In this document: positions 912-32,417 of the stretch, in pieces
Numbering within the stretch: position 1 is the first letter of the stretch
How the letters are laid out: each line of letters begins with the position of its first letter
Source: Deltaproteobacteria bacterium RIFCSPLOWO2_12_FULL_60_19
GTDB lineage: Bacteria > Desulfobacterota > Binatia > UBA9968
Assembly (NCBI GenBank): GCA_001798595.1
Contig: MGSS01000013.1
Coordinates: 12,449-45,671, forward strand
Direction: 5' to 3'
Length of the DNA: 33,223 bases
The notes under the pieces: generated by a model
The model's input: the letters and a program-made list of their open reading frames with translations, nothing else
The model's database searches: none
Told to the model about the DNA's origin: nothing
Position numbers and translations under genes: made by a program

Positions 912-1451
912 CTACTCTGCCGGCGGTTCTTTGCCTTGGGCGATGGCGACGGCCACTCGGGCCAACGCGACGGGGCTGGGGCGGTCGGAGGCGCTGTCGC
1001 CGCTGTAAGTCCAACGAACTTTTCCGTCGGGATCGACGACGAAAGTTACCGGCTTGGCGATCAAACCTTTCCAGTGTCCGTCGTGGCCGACTCCCACGGC
1101 GCGGATTAGTTGAGCGTCAGGATCGCTCAGCAGACGCAGGGGATAAGGATCGAGCGGGATGTGGGGCCGGTCTTCCTTGCAGTCCTCCGTCACGCGCTCC
1201 AATAATTTTTTTCCGTCTTCCGGCGGCTCGACGCTGACTCCCAGAATCTGAACTTTCTCCGGAACGTATCGCTCCGACTCGTAAACGAAGGCCGTCACCT
1301 GGGCCCGGCACCACGGTCACCACCGGCCACGGTAGAAAAAGACGACCGTTGCCGGCGCTTGGGCAAAGACGGCCGGGAACTCAACTGTCTTTCCGTCCGT
1401 GTCTTTAAGTTTCGCCTGCGGAAATTTCTCGCCTGCTGCTAAGATTGACAT
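912..1451 (-). CDS. peroxiredoxin-like selenoprotein candidate (in-frame TGA = Sec45)
   Basis: A thioredoxin-fold protein of the AhpC/TSA peroxiredoxin-like group, probably cytoplasmic and acting on peroxides or disulfides. The frame runs from ATG 1451, after a good GGGAGG site eight bases upstream, to the TAG at 912-914. It is broken only by TGA at 1317-1319. Reading that TGA as selenocysteine gives FFYRGRW-U-PWCRAQ. Relatives have Cys here (FYRGxWCPxCxxQ), so the stop codon sits exactly at the first redox residue and yields a UxxC motif (Sec45, Cys48). Both sides of the TGA are in one frame and are typical of the family (GEKFPQAKLKDTDG before; GVSVEPPED, FVVDPDGKVRW after). Total length would be 179 residues, normal for the family. 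The alternatives are a sequencing error or a fresh nonsense mutation. RidA lies upstream on the same strand. Confidence 0.85.
1290..1319 (-). promoter_or_regulatory. candidate bacterial SECIS element after the TGA
   Basis: Read on the minus strand, the 27 bases after the TGA can form a small hairpin. GCCG at +8 to +11 pairs with CGGC at +23 to +26, leaving a loop that contains GGU at +18 to +20. An alternative outer pairing joins CCGU (+1 to +4) to ACGG (+22 to +25). The distance from UGA to the GGU in the loop is close to that in E. coli fdhF. The fold was made by eye and not computed. Confidence 0.5.
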
Positions 1452-1670
1452 GATGTTATCCTCCCAAAAAATGCTGAAGGTTGGCGAACCTTTGTCTCCT
1501 ATCGCGCCCGCCCGGGAATCTCTCTCCGGGCCGACGCGATACGTTGCTGTTACGCTGCTCCTAAACGCTGAGAGTAGTTCTACGTTACGCTTGTGTCTCC
1601 TCGTCCCACGCGTCGGCCCTTCGAGAGACACCCAGGCGGGAGCTTGCGACGAAAGCTGTAATACTACTAC

Positions 1671-3966: not shown

Positions 3967-4827
3967 TTAACGGGAGAGGATAATCGCGACCGTGCCTAAC
4001 ACGACGCTTAGTGTGCCGAGGACGGTCAAAGGGGTGATTCGCTCGACGTCGCGGAGAAAGATCGCTGCGCCGAGCAGCGCCCACACCGGATAGGTCGCGG
4101 CGATCGGCGCGACCACGGATACCGCGCCGACGCTCAGCGCGGTGATGATAAAAAGAATGGATAGAGTCTCGGCGACGCCCGTGACGATGAGCGGCCAGAG
4201 CGCCCGGCGATTCCAGACCAGCTGCTCGCCGGGAAACAGCGCCCGATAGGCGAACATCGACAGCAGAGAGGCCGCGCCCATGAGCGCGGAAAAAAACAGC
4301 GGCTCGTTGGACAGCAAGAGCGCGTAGCGCCGGATCGGGTGGTTGGTTCCTGTCAGGCAGGCTGCGCCGACCGGGATGAGCAGGTGCCACCAGCGGAAAT
4401 TGGGAACATGTTGCTCGGCCTTCCACGAGAGCAGCACGATCCCGCCCACTACGAGGAGCGTGCCGAAGAGGACCGCGACGCCCGGTTGCTCGCGGAGCAG
4501 GGCCACGGCGATGGCGGTCGCGATCAACGGGCTGATCGCTTGCACGGCGCTGCTGCGGGCCGCGCCGATCTTGTGCACGCCGGTGTAGGCGAACATTCTC
4601 ACGCCGAATTGGGAAACCCCCACGATGGCAAAAAGGACTACGGGCATGAGCGAAACTTCCGGAGCCCCTCCGGTCAAAAAGACCGCGCTCCAAAGGAGAA
4701 TGTTTTGCGTGAGCACGGAGGCGGAGGTGACGGTTGCGGGAGTCGAATAGTTCAACGCGCGCCGGGCGGAGACCAGGGCCACCGCGTAAAAGATGGAAGT
4801 GAGCAGAGCGATGAGCTGGGCAGGCAT
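3967..4827 (-). CDS. DMT-superfamily (EamA) transporter
   Basis: An inner-membrane permease of 286 residues with about ten hydrophobic helices in two EamA halves (first roughly 5-135, second roughly 148-285). Each half ends with the usual helix pair; the second reads APIAATYPVWALLGAAIFLRD, where the acidic residue after the ninth helix is typical. The starting ATG lies 36 bases after the stop of the ThDP C-half gene on the same strand, so it probably ends the operon CoxG-GMC-ThDP-DMT and may move a substrate or product of that pathway. No clear Shine-Dalgarno is visible, which fits translation coupled to the upstream gene. The actual solute is unknown. Palindromic repeat copy A lies between its 3' end and the convergent MFS gene. 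Confidence 0.9.
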   Translation of the reverse strand: MPAQLIALLTSIFYAVALVSARRALNYSTPATVTSASVLTQNILLWSAVFLTGGAPEVSLMPVVLFAIVGVSQFGVRMFAYTGVHKIGAARSSAVQAISPLIATAIAVALLREQPGVAVLFGTLLVVGGIVLLSWKAEQHVPNFRWWHLLIPVGAACLTGTNHPIRRYALLLSNEPLFFSALMGAASLLSMFAYRALFPGEQLVWNRRALWPLIVTGVAETLSILFIITALSVGAVSVVAPIAATYPVWALLGAAIFLRDVERITPLTVLGTLSVVLGTVAIILSR

Positions 4828-4863
4828 GAAGCCAAAGTGGGGAGCTATGCTGAGAAGGCAACT

Positions 4864-5427
4864 CTACTTCTGCAGCGCTTTGCGGAAGCGGTCGCGGAAT
4901 TCGATGCTGTAAAGGCGTCGGAAATCTTCCGGGTACTGCTCTCCGGGAGTCACTTTAAGGTCGACCAAAATCGGCCCGTCTTCCTTGAGAACCTTCCCGA
5001 CCTCGCGCTCCCAGTCCTCGAGCTTGTCGAATTCGTAGCTCTTGGGATAGCCGGCGGCTCGAGCGAGCGCGGTAAAGCTCAACCGGTTCACTCCGGGTAT
5101 CGGCACGGCGCCGTTGGTCTCATAGGTGCCGTTCTCGCAGACGCAGTGGATGAGATTCTTCGGGGCGGCGTTGGCGATGGTGACGAGGCTGCCGAGATTC
5201 ATCAGCAGGCTGCCGTCGCCGTCGAGCACGACGACGCGCTTGTCCGGGCGTCCTAGAGCGAGGCCGAGGGCGTGAGACGATCCCTGTCCCATCGCGCCGG
5301 TGAAGGTGTAGTTGAAGTCGCTCGGAGAGATGTGGATCCACTCCTGGGCTGCCTGGTAAACCGCGACGACAATCTCGTCGGTCCGGTGGCGCGCGAGGAC
5401 CTTGAAACATTCATCCCGTTTCATCAT
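4864..5427 (-). CDS. thiamine-diphosphate enzyme, C-terminal (PP-domain) subunit
   Basis: This is the cofactor-binding half of a split 2-oxo acid decarboxylase-like enzyme, 187 residues. The ThDP/Mg signature is GDGS at 70-73 with Asn99 (GDG-X26-N), followed by NGTYE. TFTGAMGQGSSHALGLAL is the segment that contacts the pyrophosphate side. The nearest named families are the sulfopyruvate and phosphonopyruvate decarboxylases, of which the former is built from separate N and C subunits. The partner subunit lies just upstream (5588-6088). The 160-base gap between them contains a palindromic repeat. The start ATG-ATG at 5427 has GAGG seven bases upstream. The substrate cannot be deduced; the neighbouring GMC and CoxG genes argue for a catabolic role rather than coenzyme M synthesis. 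Confidence 0.88.
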   Translation of the reverse strand: MMKRDECFKVLARHRTDEIVVAVYQAAQEWIHISPSDFNYTFTGAMGQGSSHALGLALGRPDKRVVVLDGDGSLLMNLGSLVTIANAAPKNLIHCVCENGTYETNGAVPIPGVNRLSFTALARAAGYPKSYEFDKLEDWEREVGKVLKEDGPILVDLKVTPGEQYPEDFRRLYSIEFRDRFRKALQK

Positions 5428-5453
5428 GTGGGCCTCGATGATCCAGAGTCCTC

Positions 5454-5541
5454 GGGGCGAGCCCTTCCGGTCGACGGCAATAGGGCCCTGCCTTTTTTCG
5501 AACCTGTACGTTCAGTGCCGTCGTCCGTCACGGCTCGCCCC
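5454..5541. repeat. structured palindromic repeat, copy B
   Basis: An 88-base imperfect hairpin related to 3820-3902. The outer arm GGGGCGAGCC (5454-5463) pairs with GGCTCGCCCC (5532-5541), and the inner CGACGGCA (5472-5479) pairs with TGCCGTCG (5516-5523). It lies inside the operon between the two ThDP subunit genes. Two outer pairs are swapped relative to copy A (G-C for A-T and A-T for G-C), so pairing is kept while sequence changes. Confidence 0.8.
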
Positions 5542-5587
5542 TTCGGACAACAATCGTAGTGTCCCGTCGCGTCATGAACCCTCCACG

Positions 5588-6088
5588 CTAGCGAGGCTCC
5601 CGGCCGATCAGCAGCACCACCGGCAGCGAGCGTTCGTAGGCGCGCGCCACCGCCGGCGTGATCTTTGTTACATCTTCCGGTTGTTCAATGAGGTGGTGCT
5701 CGATGCCCATCGCGTCCAGGATCGGCTCCACGATCCGCAGGCCGTAGCGCTTCGATTGCGTCGGCGCGACGCCCGGTTCTTTGCCCAATAAACCCACCAT
5801 CATGCAAACCGGGTTTTGGCCCTCGATGGCGCCGCCGCGCAGGGAGTTAATGGAATCCAACAAACCAGTGTACTGAATCAGCAGCAGCGCGCGATGGCCC
5901 GTGGCGTAGAGGGCGCTGCAGATGGAGACTCCTTCATCCTCCTTGCAGACCTGGACGACTTTCAACTCCGGGTCTCGCAGCATCGGCTTCAGCAGATGCT
6001 CGCTGGTCGTCCGATCGGGCAGGGCGACGACGAACCGGATGTCGGCCCGTTTTATTTCTTTGATGATCTCGTTCGCGCTTAATTCCAT
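5588..6088 (-). CDS. thiamine-diphosphate enzyme, N-terminal (PYR-domain) subunit
   Basis: The 166-residue pyrimidine-binding half of the split ThDP enzyme whose C-half is at 4864-5427. The block VCKEDEGVSICSALYATG has the catalytic Glu (Glu52, in EDEG) that activates the thiamine ring in this superfamily, and QNPVCMMVGLLG is the usual strand before the subunit interface. The length fits a single PYR domain with no fused partner. Its ATG at 6088 directly follows the TAG of the GMC gene (TAGATG), which points to translational coupling. A second, related pair is encoded at 31301-32417. The family is well supported; the reaction is inferred only as 2-oxo acid decarboxylation or carboligation. 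Confidence 0.88.
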   Translation of the reverse strand: MELSANEIIKEIKRADIRFVVALPDRTTSEHLLKPMLRDPELKVVQVCKEDEGVSICSALYATGHRALLLIQYTGLLDSINSLRGGAIEGQNPVCMMVGLLGKEPGVAPTQSKRYGLRIVEPILDAMGIEHHLIEQPEDVTKITPAVARAYERSLPVVLLIGREPR

Positions 6089-7597
6089 CTAGGCGGCTCC
6101 TTCGATGAAATCAGCCAGCCTCTCTCCGATCATGATCGCCGTCAGGTTGGTGTTGGCGTGCGTCACCGTCGGCATGATCGACGCGTCGCCGATCCACAGA
6201 TTTTCCATTCCGCGCACCCGCAGGCTCTGGTCCACCACGGCCATGTTGTTCGACGCCGGGCCCATCATACATGTTCCCACTCCGTGGTGGTAGCTGTCAT
6301 AGGTCGCGCGGGCGAATTTCGCCCAATCGTCGCCGGCGGCAGGCTGCAAAAGCGGGCCGTAAAACTCTTGTGCCGGCCCGCTCTGAACCAGCTCGGAGAT
6401 AAACTTCATCGCCGCAAGCATCGCCTGGACGTCTCCCGGATCTTCGAGCATGCGCGCATCGACGAGGGGCAGCTCGCGAGGACCCGAACTCGCCAGCCGG
6501 AGCCGGCCGCGATTGCGCTGTTCGAGCAGATGGGCCGAAACCGGAAGCATGCGCTTGATCCCCTGAACCTCCGTCGGCGGCCGCATGACGATGTGAAAAT
6601 TCCCGCATCCGACGCTCGGGTCGCTTTTGATCACGAGACGGAAACGCGGCACGACCCAATCTTCCTGAAAAGTCTTTTTCCCTTCGTACGTCATGTAGAC
6701 GACGGCGTGGTCCTGGTAATTTTCGCCGACGCCGTCGAGAGCGTGAACAACGCGAATGGCGTGGCGCTTAAGCTCCGCTGCCGGACCGATGCCGGAAAGC
6801 ATGAGAATCTGCGGCGTGTGATAGACGCCGGCGCTGAGCGCGACATGATGGGCAAGCGCGGTCGCTGTTTTTCCATCCTTCTCGTAGAGCACGCCTTCGG
6901 CTTTCGCGCCGTTGAGCTTTAGCCCGACGACCAGGGCTTCGGAGACGATCGTGAGATTCGGCCGCGACCGCGCCGGATCGAGATAAGCAACCGTGGTCGA
7001 TTGGCGCTTGCCGTTCTTGATGTTGTACGGCGCAAGGCAGACGCCCAACGGATCGGCAACATTGATGTCCGGGCAAAGCGGAAGGCCCATGCCCACGGCG
7101 CCGTCGATGAACGCCTTGACCGGCGGAGAGAGAGGCGCGTCGAAGGTAATGGGCCGCTTGACGTAGAGCGGGCCGTTGCGCCCGTGCAGGGGACTATCGG
7201 GATAGTCCTGGTCGGACTCGATCCGCTTGAGCACCGGCAGCACATTCTCGTAAGACCAATCGGGATTGCCTAAGCTCGCCCAGGTCTCGAGGTCGAACCT
7301 GGTCGGGCGCAAGGCCGACATCACGTTGACCGAAGAGCCTCCGCCCATGATCCTTCCCGCCAGGTTGTAAAAAATGCTGCCGTCGAGGTTCCGCTCGGTG
7401 GGATACATCGCCAGATAGGGAGCCTCCAGAAGCAGGCGCACCTGTTTTGCCGCATCGCTCACGATGTCAGGGATGGGCTGCGGATCGGGCCCGGCTTCAA
7501 GCAGGAGAACCCTCCGCCTTGCATCTTCCGACAGCCGCGCGGCGGCGGCGCACCCGGCGGAGCCGCCGCCGGCGATGATCACGTCGTACGAGTCCAT
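6089..7597 (-). CDS. GMC-family FAD oxidoreductase (choline dehydrogenase-like)
   Basis: A soluble flavoprotein of 502 residues that oxidises an alcohol. The ADP-binding motif GGGSAG is at 10-15, LLLEAGPDP follows at the end of the second strand, and GRIMGGGSSVN is the classical GMC signature 1. The second GMC signature is visible as HHVALSAGVYHTPQILMLSGIGP. The active-site segment is YHHGVGTCMMG (His438 aligned with the catalytic His) and the paired residue is in THANTN (Asn482). GMC enzymes usually act with a quinone, a cytochrome or oxygen; no cytochrome gene is adjacent. The ThDP N-half gene begins directly after its stop and CoxG lies 60 bases upstream, all on the minus strand, so it belongs to this operon. 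The starting ATG has GGAG seven bases before it. Confidence 0.95.
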   Translation of the reverse strand: MDSYDVIIAGGGSAGCAAAARLSEDARRRVLLLEAGPDPQPIPDIVSDAAKQVRLLLEAPYLAMYPTERNLDGSIFYNLAGRIMGGGSSVNVMSALRPTRFDLETWASLGNPDWSYENVLPVLKRIESDQDYPDSPLHGRNGPLYVKRPITFDAPLSPPVKAFIDGAVGMGLPLCPDINVADPLGVCLAPYNIKNGKRQSTTVAYLDPARSRPNLTIVSEALVVGLKLNGAKAEGVLYEKDGKTATALAHHVALSAGVYHTPQILMLSGIGPAAELKRHAIRVVHALDGVGENYQDHAVVYMTYEGKKTFQEDWVVPRFRLVIKSDPSVGCGNFHIVMRPPTEVQGIKRMLPVSAHLLEQRNRGRLRLASSGPRELPLVDARMLEDPGDVQAMLAAMKFISELVQSGPAQEFYGPLLQPAAGDDWAKFARATYDSYHHGVGTCMMGPASNNMAVVDQSLRVRGMENLWIGDASIMPTVTHANTNLTAIMIGERLADFIEGAA

Positions 7598-7657
7598 GTC
7601 CTCGCTCCGCTCGGAATCTCAGATCTCAGATCTCAAAAAAACTCAACACTTAACACT

Positions 7658-8104
7658 TCACTCTTCGAGTTGCGCTCGCAGGCGGCGCGCAAATTCTTCC
7701 AGAACCAGCACCGCAGTCGCGCGCAGCACCATGTCGCCGAGGATCGCCAGCCTTCCTCTGATCCCGACCTCCGCGTGATAACCCAGTTCCGTGCGGCTTG
7801 CAATCTTTCCCGTCAACGCTACTTTCATGGTCACGCTCACCGCGCTGTTCGTGACCGAGTCCGTGCCCTCGGTTTGCACCACCATCTCGGCGGGCGGGGC
7901 GCTCTCCACCATGGTCGATCGGAAGGTGAACTTTCCCGAGATGGGGCCGACGGCGGCGCTGATGACGCCGTTAAATGTGCGTTCGTCGACCTGCGTCACC
8001 TGTTCCAGTCCCGGCAGGCAGGAAGCGAACTTTTCAATGTCCATGAGAAAATCCCAAACCCGAAGAGGGGAGGCGCCAACGTCGATTGTTCCTTCGAAGA
8101 TCAT
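7658..8104 (-). CDS. CoxG-like SRPBCC protein
   Basis: A 148-residue START/SRPBCC-fold protein. The first part, FEGTIDVGASPLRVWDFLMDI, followed by CLPGLEQV, is typical of the CoxG family (CO dehydrogenase subunit G-like). CoxG members are thought to help recruit molybdenum-containing oxidoreductases of the CoxL type to the membrane. No molybdenum hydroxylase subunits are present here, so this one may simply be a ligand-binding SRPBCC protein of the pathway. The C-terminal membrane-anchor helix found in some CoxG proteins is absent; the end is the polar EEFARRLRAQLEE. It is first in the presumed minus-strand operon that continues with the GMC gene. An inverted repeat GCACT-GTTTAT-AGTGC at 8187-8202, in the gap shared with the deacetylase gene, could be an operator. 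Confidence 0.85.
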   Translation of the reverse strand: MIFEGTIDVGASPLRVWDFLMDIEKFASCLPGLEQVTQVDERTFNGVISAAVGPISGKFTFRSTMVESAPPAEMVVQTEGTDSVTNSAVSVTMKVALTGKIASRTELGYHAEVGIRGRLAILGDMVLRATAVLVLEEFARRLRAQLEE

Positions 8105-10852: not shown

Positions 10853-10953
10853 ATTTACCGGACATCCAACCCCTGACACTCCTTCGTCGATACCCACCGA
10901 TATTCCCTTATCACTTACTAATGTGCTAGCGTTTGCCGAAGCATGGTTGTTGG
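10796..10953 (+). repeat. 158-bp duplicated segment, left copy
   Basis: Nearly identical, without gaps and with about half a dozen differences, to 21607-21764. It runs from the tail of the 5S-like remnant through AATTCAAGGACTGAATT (a small inverted repeat) to just before the primase-helicase gene, and so covers the region where that gene's promoter should be. Confidence 0.9.
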
Positions 10954-10989
10954 AGACACGTTTGTCCTCGTCGTCTCCGGGAGTGTACC

Positions 10990-13353
10990 TTGAGCGGTAC
11001 TGATAAACCCGAAGAAGTGCATCTTCAGTTAGAAGAGATGCGCCGCGAGTTGGAGCGACTCCGCAAGGAAAACGCTGAGCTTCGCCGGCTGTCGGGCGTG
11101 GCTGTGGTCGAGCCAACACGCAAATATCATGCGGAATCGGAGGAACATCGGCCGAGTGCTAGAGCGGGTTCCCTGCTGACTGCCGATTCTTCGACCCGGG
11201 AGAGAATCGCATTATTCCGAAATCTCTTTAGAGGGAGAGAGGACGTCCATGCCATTTTCTGGACGAATGAGCGGAGTGGCAAAAAGGGATATTCTCCGGC
11301 CGTAGAGGACCCGTGGAACTCGGGAAAAGGCAAACCAAAGAGCTATCTCCCTCTAACCGATCAAGTAGTTCATGATCACCTGACAGGAGAGAAAGTGATC
11401 GGGTGCTACCCGCTGCTAAAGGACAATACTTGCTGGTTTTTGGCGTGTGATTTCGACAAGGAGGGCTGGGTCTTAGACAGCTTGGCGTTGCTGAATGTCT
11501 GCAAACGGTTTGCGGTTCCGGCTTATCTTGAAAGATCGCGTTCAGGAAGAGGCGGCCACGTCTGGATCTTCTTTTCCTCTCCGGTGTCGGCGATCTTGGC
11601 CAGGCAATTAGGGATGAGACTGCTAAGAGAAACGATGGACCTGCGCGGAGATATGGACCTCGCGAGCTATGACCGGTTTTTCCCTAACCAGGATTTCGTG
11701 CCTGGCGGAGGCTTTGGGAATCTTATCGCTTTGCCTCTTCAGAAAAAAAGCAGAGCCCAGAGAAATACCGAATTCATTAATTCCGAAGACCCGGAATTAC
11801 CTCCCTATCCGGACCAATGGGCTTTTCTAAGCCGCGTTGAACGACTTGGGCCAACCCATTTGGAGGCTTTGCTTGAAAAAATACCACAGGTGGCGGTTGG
11901 GCCGGGCACTCCTGGACTGGCGTCTCCTTCGATCCGTCACAAGTATCCTGCGCCTGATCGAATCCGCTGCACCTTAGGAAGCACGGTCAGCCTGGAAAAA
12001 TCCGGCATTCCGCCGTGGATGCTTTCCCAGATTAAACACCTCGCATCGTTCCATAATCCCAAGTTCTACGAGCGCCAGAAACTGCGTCTCTCTACCTTCC
12101 AAATTCCGCGGTTCGTCCGATGTTACGAAGAAGACGTTTATCACATCCACCTGCCTCGAGGGCTTCTGGAAGATATTCGGCAGGCAGCTAAAGAAGCTGG
12201 GAGCAAGATTTCGATTATTGACCAACGGCCCGTACCCGGGAAATTATCTCTTAAGTTCTTGGGTTCATTGACACCAACACAAGAGCACGCAGTTCAGAAT
12301 TTGCTCGCACACGAGATGGGGGTTTTAGTAGCTCCACCCGGAGCCGGAAAAACCGTGATGGGATGTTTTGTAGTAGCCAAGCGAAGTCTGCCGACGCTTA
12401 TCCTGTCCCATCGCAAGCCGATCTTGGAACAGTGGCGAGTCCAGTTGACGGCACTGTTGAGCCTTTCCTCGCGGCAAATCGGTCAGGTGGGAGGTGGAAG
12501 AAATCGCCGAAGTGGGATTGTGGATCTAGCCATGATTCAGAGTTTAAAGAGCATTCCCGATTTAGAAACTTTCTACGCGGACTACGGACTCATTATCGTG
12601 GACGAGTGCCATCATCTGCCGGCTTTTACTTTCGAAGGCTGTATCAGAAGGGCCCCGATCCGCTACATTCTCGGGCTCACCGCGACACCCTACCGCCGCG
12701 ACGGTCTCCAGAGTATTATCACCATGCAATGCGGGCCGGTACGTCACAAAATGGAGGATGCCGCGGCGGAGTTTTCTCTGAGGTTGAATGTTCGACCGAC
12801 ATCCTTCACTCTTCCGACCGATGAGAGCCCCTCGATCCAGGAAATTTTCCGTAGCCTGGTCAAAGACGAAGGACGAAATGCTTTGATTGTAGAGGATATA
12901 ATTCGGGCTTTAGAGGAAGGCCGGCAATGTTTACTCCTCAGCCACTGGAGGGAGCATTGTCAGTTGCTGGCTGATAGATTGATTCAAAGAGGGAAGGTTC
13001 CTTTCATCTTGACCGGAGCACTCGGTAAAAGAGAGCGGGCATCGATTTTTAAGGGCATCGAGGATACATCTCCGCAGAAAGAGCTACTCGTAATCGCTAC
13101 CGGACAGTACTTGGGCGAGGGGTTCGACTGCCCGAGAATCGATACTCTCTTTCTTGCGTTCCCGGTCTCTTTCAAGGGGAAAATCGTTCAATACGTCGGA
13201 AGAACGTTGAGAAATTACCGAGGCAAAAGCAGCGTCAGGGTCTATGACTATTTTGATGCCAAGATGCCGATTCTGAGTAAGATGCATTTCCGGCGTCTTA
13301 TGACCTACAAGGCACTTGGATTCGAAGCTGAAGAGGCCGGCTCCGCCGAGTAG
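10990..13353 (+). CDS. TOTE-type archaeo-eukaryotic primase fused to SF2 helicase
   Basis: A 787-residue, two-enzyme protein. Residues 8-34 are a Glu/Lys/Leu-rich coiled coil. Residues about 80-330 form an archaeo-eukaryotic primase domain: catalytic acids Asp154 and Asp156 in ACDFDKEGW, His190 in GRGGHVWIFF, and the NLIALPLQ strand. This matches the primase called the TOTE conflict-system type in domain databases. Residues about 425-780 are an SF2 helicase: motif I APPGAGKT (448-455), DECH (538-541), TATP (564-567) and motif VI QYVGRTLRN (734-742). TOTE genes were predicted by comparative genomics to act in genome conflict or defence. The start TTG at 10990 is preferred because GGGAG lies six bases before it; an in-frame ATG at 10933 falls inside the duplicated segment. 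AbrB follows. The other components of such systems are not seen. Confidence 0.88.
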   Translation: MSGTDKPEEVHLQLEEMRRELERLRKENAELRRLSGVAVVEPTRKYHAESEEHRPSARAGSLLTADSSTRERIALFRNLFRGREDVHAIFWTNERSGKKGYSPAVEDPWNSGKGKPKSYLPLTDQVVHDHLTGEKVIGCYPLLKDNTCWFLACDFDKEGWVLDSLALLNVCKRFAVPAYLERSRSGRGGHVWIFFSSPVSAILARQLGMRLLRETMDLRGDMDLASYDRFFPNQDFVPGGGFGNLIALPLQKKSRAQRNTEFINSEDPELPPYPDQWAFLSRVERLGPTHLEALLEKIPQVAVGPGTPGLASPSIRHKYPAPDRIRCTLGSTVSLEKSGIPPWMLSQIKHLASFHNPKFYERQKLRLSTFQIPRFVRCYEEDVYHIHLPRGLLEDIRQAAKEAGSKISIIDQRPVPGKLSLKFLGSLTPTQEHAVQNLLAHEMGVLVAPPGAGKTVMGCFVVAKRSLPTLILSHRKPILEQWRVQLTALLSLSSRQIGQVGGGRNRRSGIVDLAMIQSLKSIPDLETFYADYGLIIVDECHHLPAFTFEGCIRRAPIRYILGLTATPYRRDGLQSIITMQCGPVRHKMEDAAAEFSLRLNVRPTSFTLPTDESPSIQEIFRSLVKDEGRNALIVEDIIRALEEGRQCLLLSHWREHCQLLADRLIQRGKVPFILTGALGKRERASIFKGIEDTSPQKELLVIATGQYLGEGFDCPRIDTLFLAFPVSFKGKIVQYVGRTLRNYRGKSSVRVYDYFDAKMPILSKMHFRRLMTYKALGFEAEEAGSAE

Positions 13354-31300: not shown

Positions 31301-31912
31301 TTAGCGGGGGCTGCTCGCGCGCGACGGCGTTGCGGTAAGGATCTTTAAGTTCTCGCTTTTCTCGATATAGCGCACGAACAGATATTTGTTTTCCTGCGAG
31401 TCCAAAGCCGCCGCCGGCACCTCGCCCGCTCCGGCTTCAACCTTTGCCAGGATGAAGTGGAGATCGTTGCTCTTCAAGGCGCGCAGGAATCCTCCTTCGA
31501 ATTCGCCCAGCGTCTTTGCCGTCATGACGTTGGCAAAACCGGCGCCCCGCGCGATCGCGGCCAGATCGGCCCGCCCGGCCGTGGCCGTCGGCGCGCCGCG
31601 CGAGGACTCGTAGCATTCGTTGTCGAAGACGATATGGATAAGATTCGCCGGATGCTGGTTGGCTATCGTCGCCAGGCTGCCGAGGTTGAGCAGCAGAGAG
31701 CCGTCTCCGTCGAAGGCCACGACCTTGCGGTGCGGCAGCGCCAGAGCCAAACCGAGCGCCATGGAAGAGGTGAGCCCCAGGTTCTGCAAATGGTAATTGC
31801 CCGGGTGAGGTCTGAGAGCCTGCCACTCGTGGCGCACGGCGCCGATGTTCGTGACCACCAGCTCTTCGCCGAAGCGCGGCGCTATCGCTTTAAGACAATC
31901 GTATCTCTTCAT
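31301..31912 (-). CDS. thiamine-diphosphate enzyme, C-terminal (PP-domain) subunit, second set
   Basis: A 203-residue cofactor-binding subunit. GDGS is at 69-72 and Asn98 follows in FDNECYE (GDG-X26-N). LGLTSSMALGLALALP precedes it. It is homologous to the subunit at 4864-5427 but clearly diverged: about 15 residues longer, with a polar, probably disordered end (LTATPSRASSPR). The N-half gene lies four bases upstream on the same strand. It is convergent with the CoA-transferase pair. It is a sulfopyruvate/phosphonopyruvate decarboxylase-like enzyme of unknown substrate. Confidence 0.88.
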   Translation of the reverse strand: MKRYDCLKAIAPRFGEELVVTNIGAVRHEWQALRPHPGNYHLQNLGLTSSMALGLALALPHRKVVAFDGDGSLLLNLGSLATIANQHPANLIHIVFDNECYESSRGAPTATAGRADLAAIARGAGFANVMTAKTLGEFEGGFLRALKSNDLHFILAKVEAGAGEVPAAALDSQENKYLFVRYIEKSENLKILTATPSRASSPR

Positions 31913-31916
31913 CGAA

Positions 31917-32417
31917 CTACCTCAGGGCTTGTTTGTTGAGCACGATGGCCGTGGGCCGGCGCGAGGAGCGCGCGAGCGTCTGACTATCGCGAACGGCGGG
32001 ACGAATCTCCTCGAAGCGGCCCACTTTCTCGTACACAATGTGCATGGCCTGCAAGACCGGCTCGGTCAGGGCGCCGACGGTGGCATGCCCGGCGTTTTCC
32101 TCGCCGACGCCGCCGCTGTGACCGATCAACATCAACACGGGGATGCCCGGATGAATACAGACCGTCGCGATCGCGTTCGCCGATAATAGGAAGCCCGCGT
32201 TCATCATCACCATCGCCGGCTTTTTCCCGCCCAGGTAGGCGCCCGCGCAGACGCCGATGCCCTCCTCCTCGCGGGTCACGGGCACGTGGTGAATCGCGGG
32301 ATCTTCGCCCAGCGCGATGACGAGGTCGTGCAGATTCGCTTCAGTCAGCGTCGCGACGAAATCGACGCCGGCCTCCTTGAGCGAATCGACTATCTCCGCC
32401 GCCACTTCTCGTTTCAT
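31917..32417 (-). CDS. thiamine-diphosphate enzyme, N-terminal (PYR-domain) subunit, second set
   Basis: A 166-residue subunit, the same length as its counterpart at 5588-6088. PVTREEEGIGVCAGAYLGG has the catalytic Glu (Glu52), and GIPVLMLIGHSGGVGEENAGH is the loop after the central strand. The gene order N-half then C-half is the same as in the first set, here without an intervening repeat. A GGAGGA site precedes ATG 32417. Two such split enzymes in one window suggest a lineage with many copies used in organic acid catabolism. Confidence 0.88.
   Translation of the reverse strand: MKREVAAEIVDSLKEAGVDFVATLTEANLHDLVIALGEDPAIHHVPVTREEEGIGVCAGAYLGGKKPAMVMMNAGFLLSANAIATVCIHPGIPVLMLIGHSGGVGEENAGHATVGALTEPVLQAMHIVYEKVGRFEEIRPAVRDSQTLARSSRRPTAIVLNKQALR

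Follow-up and report, generated by a model that had tools for sequence, protein, structure and literature searches.

Does the TGA codon that divides a peroxiredoxin-like reading frame in this genome end a gene, or is it read as selenocysteine (Sec) in a redox enzyme? The window, the whole stretch of 33,223 nucleotides analysed here, derives from Deltaproteobacteria bacterium RIFCSPLOWO2_12_FULL_60_19. The best explanation of the locus, which we regard as almost certain from the sequence data, is a predicted selenoprotein of the peroxiredoxin-like (Prx-like) UxxC kind. The internal stop TGA is very probably decoded as selenocysteine, which would sit in the active site of a Prx-like redox enzyme. 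What the sequence itself shows is the redox position of the UGA, its conservation, selection past it, the presence of Sec machinery and the fold match.

An AhpC/TSA gene interrupted by TGA

The gene occupies positions 912–1451 of the minus strand. Its ATG at 1451 is in phase with the TGA (1317–1319) and with the TAG stop (912–914), and the joined product comprises 179 residues including the predicted Sec45, with no other interruption in the frame (...VVFFYRGRWUPWCRAQ... around the TGA). The TGA forms the first position of a UPWC motif, and the TGC codon of Cys48, the UxxC partner of Sec45, lies at 1308–1310 (minus strand). A ribosome-binding-like GGGAGG, read by eye, is located 5' of the ATG at 1460–1465 (minus strand). 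An earlier note on this DNA had described two in-phase frames separated only by the TGA, with a strong ribosome binding site at the start, and had predicted that annotation would split or truncate the gene; the frames and the split were borne out, the mechanical list of open reading frames giving 912–1298 and 1317–1631. Since this list cuts the gene at the TGA, routine annotation would miss its active site. The window contains 38 "start + TGA + open frame" constructs at a loose cut-off, and among the 24 listed at a stricter cut-off the UPWC gene was the only one in which a redox motif was seen, by eye, at the TGA.

The joined protein is a member of the AhpC-TSA family of Pfam (PF00578; E 1.4e-24, 86.8 bits against a cut-off of 26) and also matches Redoxin (E 2e-17). 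None of the 12 NCBIfam models among the matches listed reached its own cut-off.

Conservation of the TGA and the selenium machinery

The search for relatives covered the family (25 genomes), the class (148) and the phylum (395, drawn from a larger group and with at most eight candidates scored in each genome). Apart from the window, 12 of the matches listed, in 11 genomes, were at least 45% identical and spanned residue 45; the codon of column 45 was checked in each, and all 12 have TGA. The intact orthologues (window, L024–L030 and L081), from eight genera, carry TGA at the identical codon in nine of nine cases, the eight besides the window being 68–77% identical; this count omits L031 (frameshift), L032 (TAG and frameshift), L033 (apparent frameshift) and the more distant L119. 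Genomes G013 and G009 contain short N-terminal fragments, both ending before residue 45. Damaged copies in relatives are represented by L031/L048 (G007), L032 (G022), L033 (G004), L047/L121 (G013) and L122 (G009), and these frameshifted, stopped or shortened copies look like the outcome of decay or assembly faults. Plasmid relatives were found in 20 records, with identity of at most 31.4% among the 15 matches listed. A Planctomycetota locus (L022), 35% identical over 40 residues only, was dropped.

A wider alignment comprised 71 loci (L023–L093), which are part of the matches; 70 of them, all except L047, align over residues 45–48. Column 45 holds TGA in 53 loci, Cys in 10, Thr in six and Ser in one, and column 48 is Cys in all 53 TGA rows. 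TGA is confined to column 45 in 52 rows, occurs additionally at column 175 in one, and is absent from 17. As L023 is the window and L031 and L048 are one gene, TGA is present in 51 distinct genes besides that of the window. In the 10 rows with Cys at 45, column 48 is Cys in four, Ala in five and Ser in one. The alignment proposed in the earlier note agreed with its placement of the TGA at the first Cys of a CPxC motif: the in-frame TGA is the first position of CxxC, a column that is Sec or Cys in the CPxC relatives (e.g., Cys in L057, L060 and L063). Judging by codon variation, protein-level selection continues downstream of the TGA: mean pN/pS is 0.32 upstream and 0.23 downstream, and third codon positions are the most variable on both sides.

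The genome (4.19 Mb, 97% complete, 162 contigs) encodes the complete set for which a search had been suggested. Its tRNA-Sec scored 76.6 bits against a cut-off of 47, with anticodon TCA assigned by ARAGORN, and selA (603.7 bits), selB (379.5 bits) and selD (383 bits), each above its own cut-off, are consecutive on a single contig (C142). Since the tRNA, selB and selD models also gave weak matches in each of the 14 control genomes, only matches above the cut-offs were counted. The selD gene itself contains one in-frame TGA, in a UxxK motif, which is a listed SelD motif (PMC13188914). One TGA is also carried by seven of the 15 AhpC/TSA matches of the genome, at the redox position in each: four are of the UxxC type, namely UPWC (L103, the gene under study), UPYC (L096), UPEC (L101) and UPKC (L104), and three of the T/SxxU type, namely TFVU (L095), TGGU (L097) and SPTU (L099). 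The genome therefore has at least eight selenoprotein candidates, seven AhpC/TSA proteins and SelD, a lower bound because the TGA scan covered AhpC/TSA and selD.

These data bear on two other explanations of the codon. A sequencing or assembly error, or a recent pseudogene, could be suspected in an assembly of 162 contigs, the more so as the orthologues of G007 and G004, with frameshifts, and of G022, with TAG and a frameshift, look decayed or mis-assembled and only N-terminal pieces are left in G013 and G009; however, all nine intact orthologues have the TGA, and the sequence after it remains under coding constraint. Because nine orthologues share the TGA, this explanation of the codon is set aside as highly improbable. 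Reading of UGA as another amino acid, either Cys via a tRNA-Cys with a UCA anticodon or Trp, has in its favor that both kinds of recoding are known in bacteria. Against it stand the tRNA-Sec, selA, selB and selD of the genome, and the fact that other frames of the same genome (e.g., L098, L100 and L104) terminate at TGA, so that UGA is not reassigned genome-wide and global recoding was discarded. Moreover, the seven tRNAs that match the tRNA-Sec model next best, ahead of four weaker matches, are Ser(TGA), Ser(GCT), Ser(GGA), Leu(TAA), Leu(CAA), Trp(CCA) and Gly(TCC); a TCA anticodon occurs in no member of this set of seven. Insertion of Cys or Trp is accordingly given very little credence, and selenocysteine is retained as the most probable reading of this UGA.

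Candidate SECIS hairpin and the redox site

A candidate bacterial SECIS hairpin, GGGCC-CAGGUGAC-GGCCU, is located at 1289–1306 on the minus strand, with GGU in the loop. It has a 5-bp stem and an 8-nt loop that begins at the 16th nucleotide after the UGA (15 nt between). The bSECIS model given in PMC13188914 comprises a loop of 3–9 nt, an upper stem of 4–16 bp, a G within the first two loop positions and a distance of 16–37 nt from UGA to loop; in contrast to the model, the first G of the loop CAGGUGAC of the window is at position 3. Codons 50–54 (GCC CAG GTG ACG GCC) are nearly fixed, whereas other invariant residues are mostly encoded by variable codons. Among 78 sites, codons 49–54 form the six-site run with the best synonymous conservation, matched in two of 20000 shuffles anywhere and in none of 20000 at that place, which supports a nucleotide-level element at codons 49–54.

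Across 12 sequences, of which three are damaged copies, the stem pairs in 59 of 60 cells, and no compensatory change was found in any pair of these 12. Folding of the local 22 nt gives the full 5-bp hairpin in eight of the nine intact copies, the closing pair being broken in L081. Within the 57 nt after the UGA the pair probability of the hairpin exceeds 0.5 in three of nine orthologues (window, L028 and L030), and in the other six the free strand prefers other pairing; our assumption is that the ribosome masks bases of the competing pairing. A long lower stem seen in the window's own fold was rejected, since it is missing from the folds of most orthologues. Candidate hairpins in paralogues, inspected by eye, carry no weight in this assignment. 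The GGU-loop hairpin proposed in the earlier note is thus present, at unusually conserved synonymous sites, while covariation is lacking, the first G stands at position 3 and six of nine orthologues prefer a different fold. The hairpin is likely a SECIS element.

The position of the Sec can be specified further than in the earlier note. In BCP-type peroxiredoxins (e.g., L075 and L073) Sec45 faces Thr or Ser, and Cys48 aligns with the peroxidatic Cys, as also in the alignment with 3hjp. By alignment, the predicted Sec thus stands where true peroxiredoxins have the Thr of TxxC, and not where they have the peroxidatic Cys. In the AlphaFold2 model (pLDDT 93.1, pTM 0.90) residue 45 immediately precedes a helix (46–57). 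The nearest solved folds are peroxiredoxins (3hjp_A by Foldseek, E 8.0e-15), the best structural match being Bcp4, 3hjp_A (Z 23.5, rmsd 1.8, 156 residues). Alignment position, model and structural matches together indicate a peroxiredoxin-fold protein with a thioredoxin-like UxxC motif.

The fold, its closest structural matches and the alignment of Cys48 with the peroxidatic Cys would also suit true peroxiredoxin catalysis, in which Cys48 attacks the peroxide and Sec45 is resolving or assisting. The sequence RGRWUPWC, however, is without the PxxxTxxC motif, and the Cys-at-45 relatives have Ala (5 of 10) or Ser (1 of 10) in column 48; retention of Cys at 45 with Ala or Ser at 48 suggests that the reactive residue is the one in column 45. 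The genome has, besides, separate T/SxxU genes (L095, L097 and L099). We consider catalysis through Cys48 unlikely and favor Sec45 as the attacking residue.

We infer the following scheme for the insertion of Sec, the part played in it by the SECIS, and the catalysis, substrate and physiological role of the product. SelB would carry Sec-tRNA(UCA) to the UGA, aided by the hairpin about 15 nt downstream, and the product would be an enzyme that combines the peroxiredoxin fold with a thioredoxin-like motif. The selenolate of Sec45 would attack a peroxide or disulfide; the intermediate, resolved by Cys48 as a selenenylsulfide, would then be reduced by a thioredoxin-like partner. The product may protect or serve an oxidative catabolic cluster, comprising a molybdenum hydroxylase and a GMC flavo-oxidase, that is able to make peroxides.

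Known relatives, gene neighbourhood and significance

A Prx-like family with UxxC replacing TxxU has been described (PMC1088965). Eight Prx-like Sec proteins, several of them in Deltaproteobacteria, were counted in PMC1794560, and 32 in 28 organisms in PMC5029168; PMC13188914 presents the Prx-like UxxC/UxxU thiol:disulfide oxidoreductase (PF00578) as predicted with high confidence and not experimentally verified. The window gene resembles the Prx-like UxxC selenoproteins of these sources (PMC13188914, PMC1088965, PMC1794560) in several respects: it is an AhpC/TSA protein, it has a thioredoxin-like UxxC instead of TxxU, Cys forms exist among its homologues, and its genome encodes Sec machinery. 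That it belongs with them is well supported: the kind is already known and the member is new. It differs from the others in forming its own subfamily, a group at 45–99% identity together with the fragments of G013 and G009, the other matches listed being at most 38% identical. This subfamily has a stretch around DCxEDRPHIPLDPYPLRLL that is absent from the more distant aligned relatives. Among the openly licensed papers listed in literature searches, none on the UPWC subfamily or its neighbourhood was recognized.

SelL and SelL-related redox proteins form a UxxU diselenide. The window protein is likewise Prx-related with Sec at the first redox position, but it has only one Sec, residue 48 being Cys, and it scored 34.7 bits with the SelL model (NF040769) against a cut-off of 120, outside that family. 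It shares the Prx fold and Sec with Sec-peroxiredoxins (TxxU, including PrxU, NF040737); in these the Sec of PxxxTxxU is peroxidatic, whereas RGRWUPWC has Sec in the Thr column, and with 12.6 bits against a cut-off of 270 for NF040737 it falls outside this family too. The selenoprotein of the peroxiredoxin-like family cd02970 has UxxS (PMC13188914); compared by description, it is also peroxiredoxin-like and AhpC/TSA, and differs from the UxxC of the window protein.

Unlike other Prx-like UxxC selenoproteins, relatives of the window gene often adjoin genes for molybdenum hydroxylase, OsmC, CoxG and GMC oxidoreductase. The neighbourhood sample comprised 14 stretches around relatives and fragments, in which the molybdenum hydroxylase was identified by a Pfam scan of L109 (MoCoBD) and its homologues by tblastn. 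It is near the gene in nine of the 14: immediately upstream and in the same orientation in L109 and L110, both short contigs, and in L115; upstream with a gap or other frame between in L111 and L112; separated from the gene by an OsmC homologue in L113, L114 and L117; and followed by an OsmC homologue before the truncated gene start in L122. CoxG, GMC oxidoreductase and two TPP-enzyme halves lie downstream in L112, L113, L115 and L116, and CoxG and GMC at the stretch edge in L117. No CoxG, GMC or TPP genes were present in the some kilobases seen downstream in L111, L114 and L118, and none of the close homologues was found in the stretches L119–L121.

In the window, homologues of these neighbours form a minus-strand block (3970–8098) whose counterparts neighbour the selenoprotein orthologue in some relatives: EamA transporter (3970–4827), two TPP-enzyme genes, TPP_enzyme_C and TPP_enzyme_N (at 4867–5427 and 5591–6088), GMC oxidoreductase (6092–7597) and CoxG-like (7652–8098). 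The block is upstream of the gene, with MFS and RidA-like genes between, and the closest molybdenum hydroxylase of the genome (76% identity) is on another contig (C2). The relatives have a different gene order from the window, which makes the functional link weak for the window's own copy; the neighbourhood is an association with rearrangements, short of proof of a role.

The molybdenum-hydroxylase large subunit has 31 matches in the genome (including L123 and L124), some of them fragments; the family is greatly expanded there. The window also contains a second, more distant split TPP-enzyme pair (31430–32402), 30–40% identical to the pair of L115, and a gene that combines helicase domains with the primase domain of a TOTE conflict system (10933–13353).

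From the neighbourhood, the gene product may protect or serve an oxidative catabolic cluster. A more specific proposal, which we put forward tentatively as a possibility, is that this Prx-like subfamily, whose Cys form was unseen in the sampled genomes, is dedicated to that cluster: together with OsmC and CoxG it would scavenge peroxide from the molybdenum hydroxylase and the GMC oxidase, or would reduce or mature the molybdenum hydroxylase. The neighbours of the gene in relatives suggest a testable physiological role for the UxxC family. A genome counts as "selenoprotein-rich" above a threshold of six (PMC1794560, PMC5029168), and with at least eight candidates, more than six, much of the thiol redox system of this lineage would be mis-annotated.
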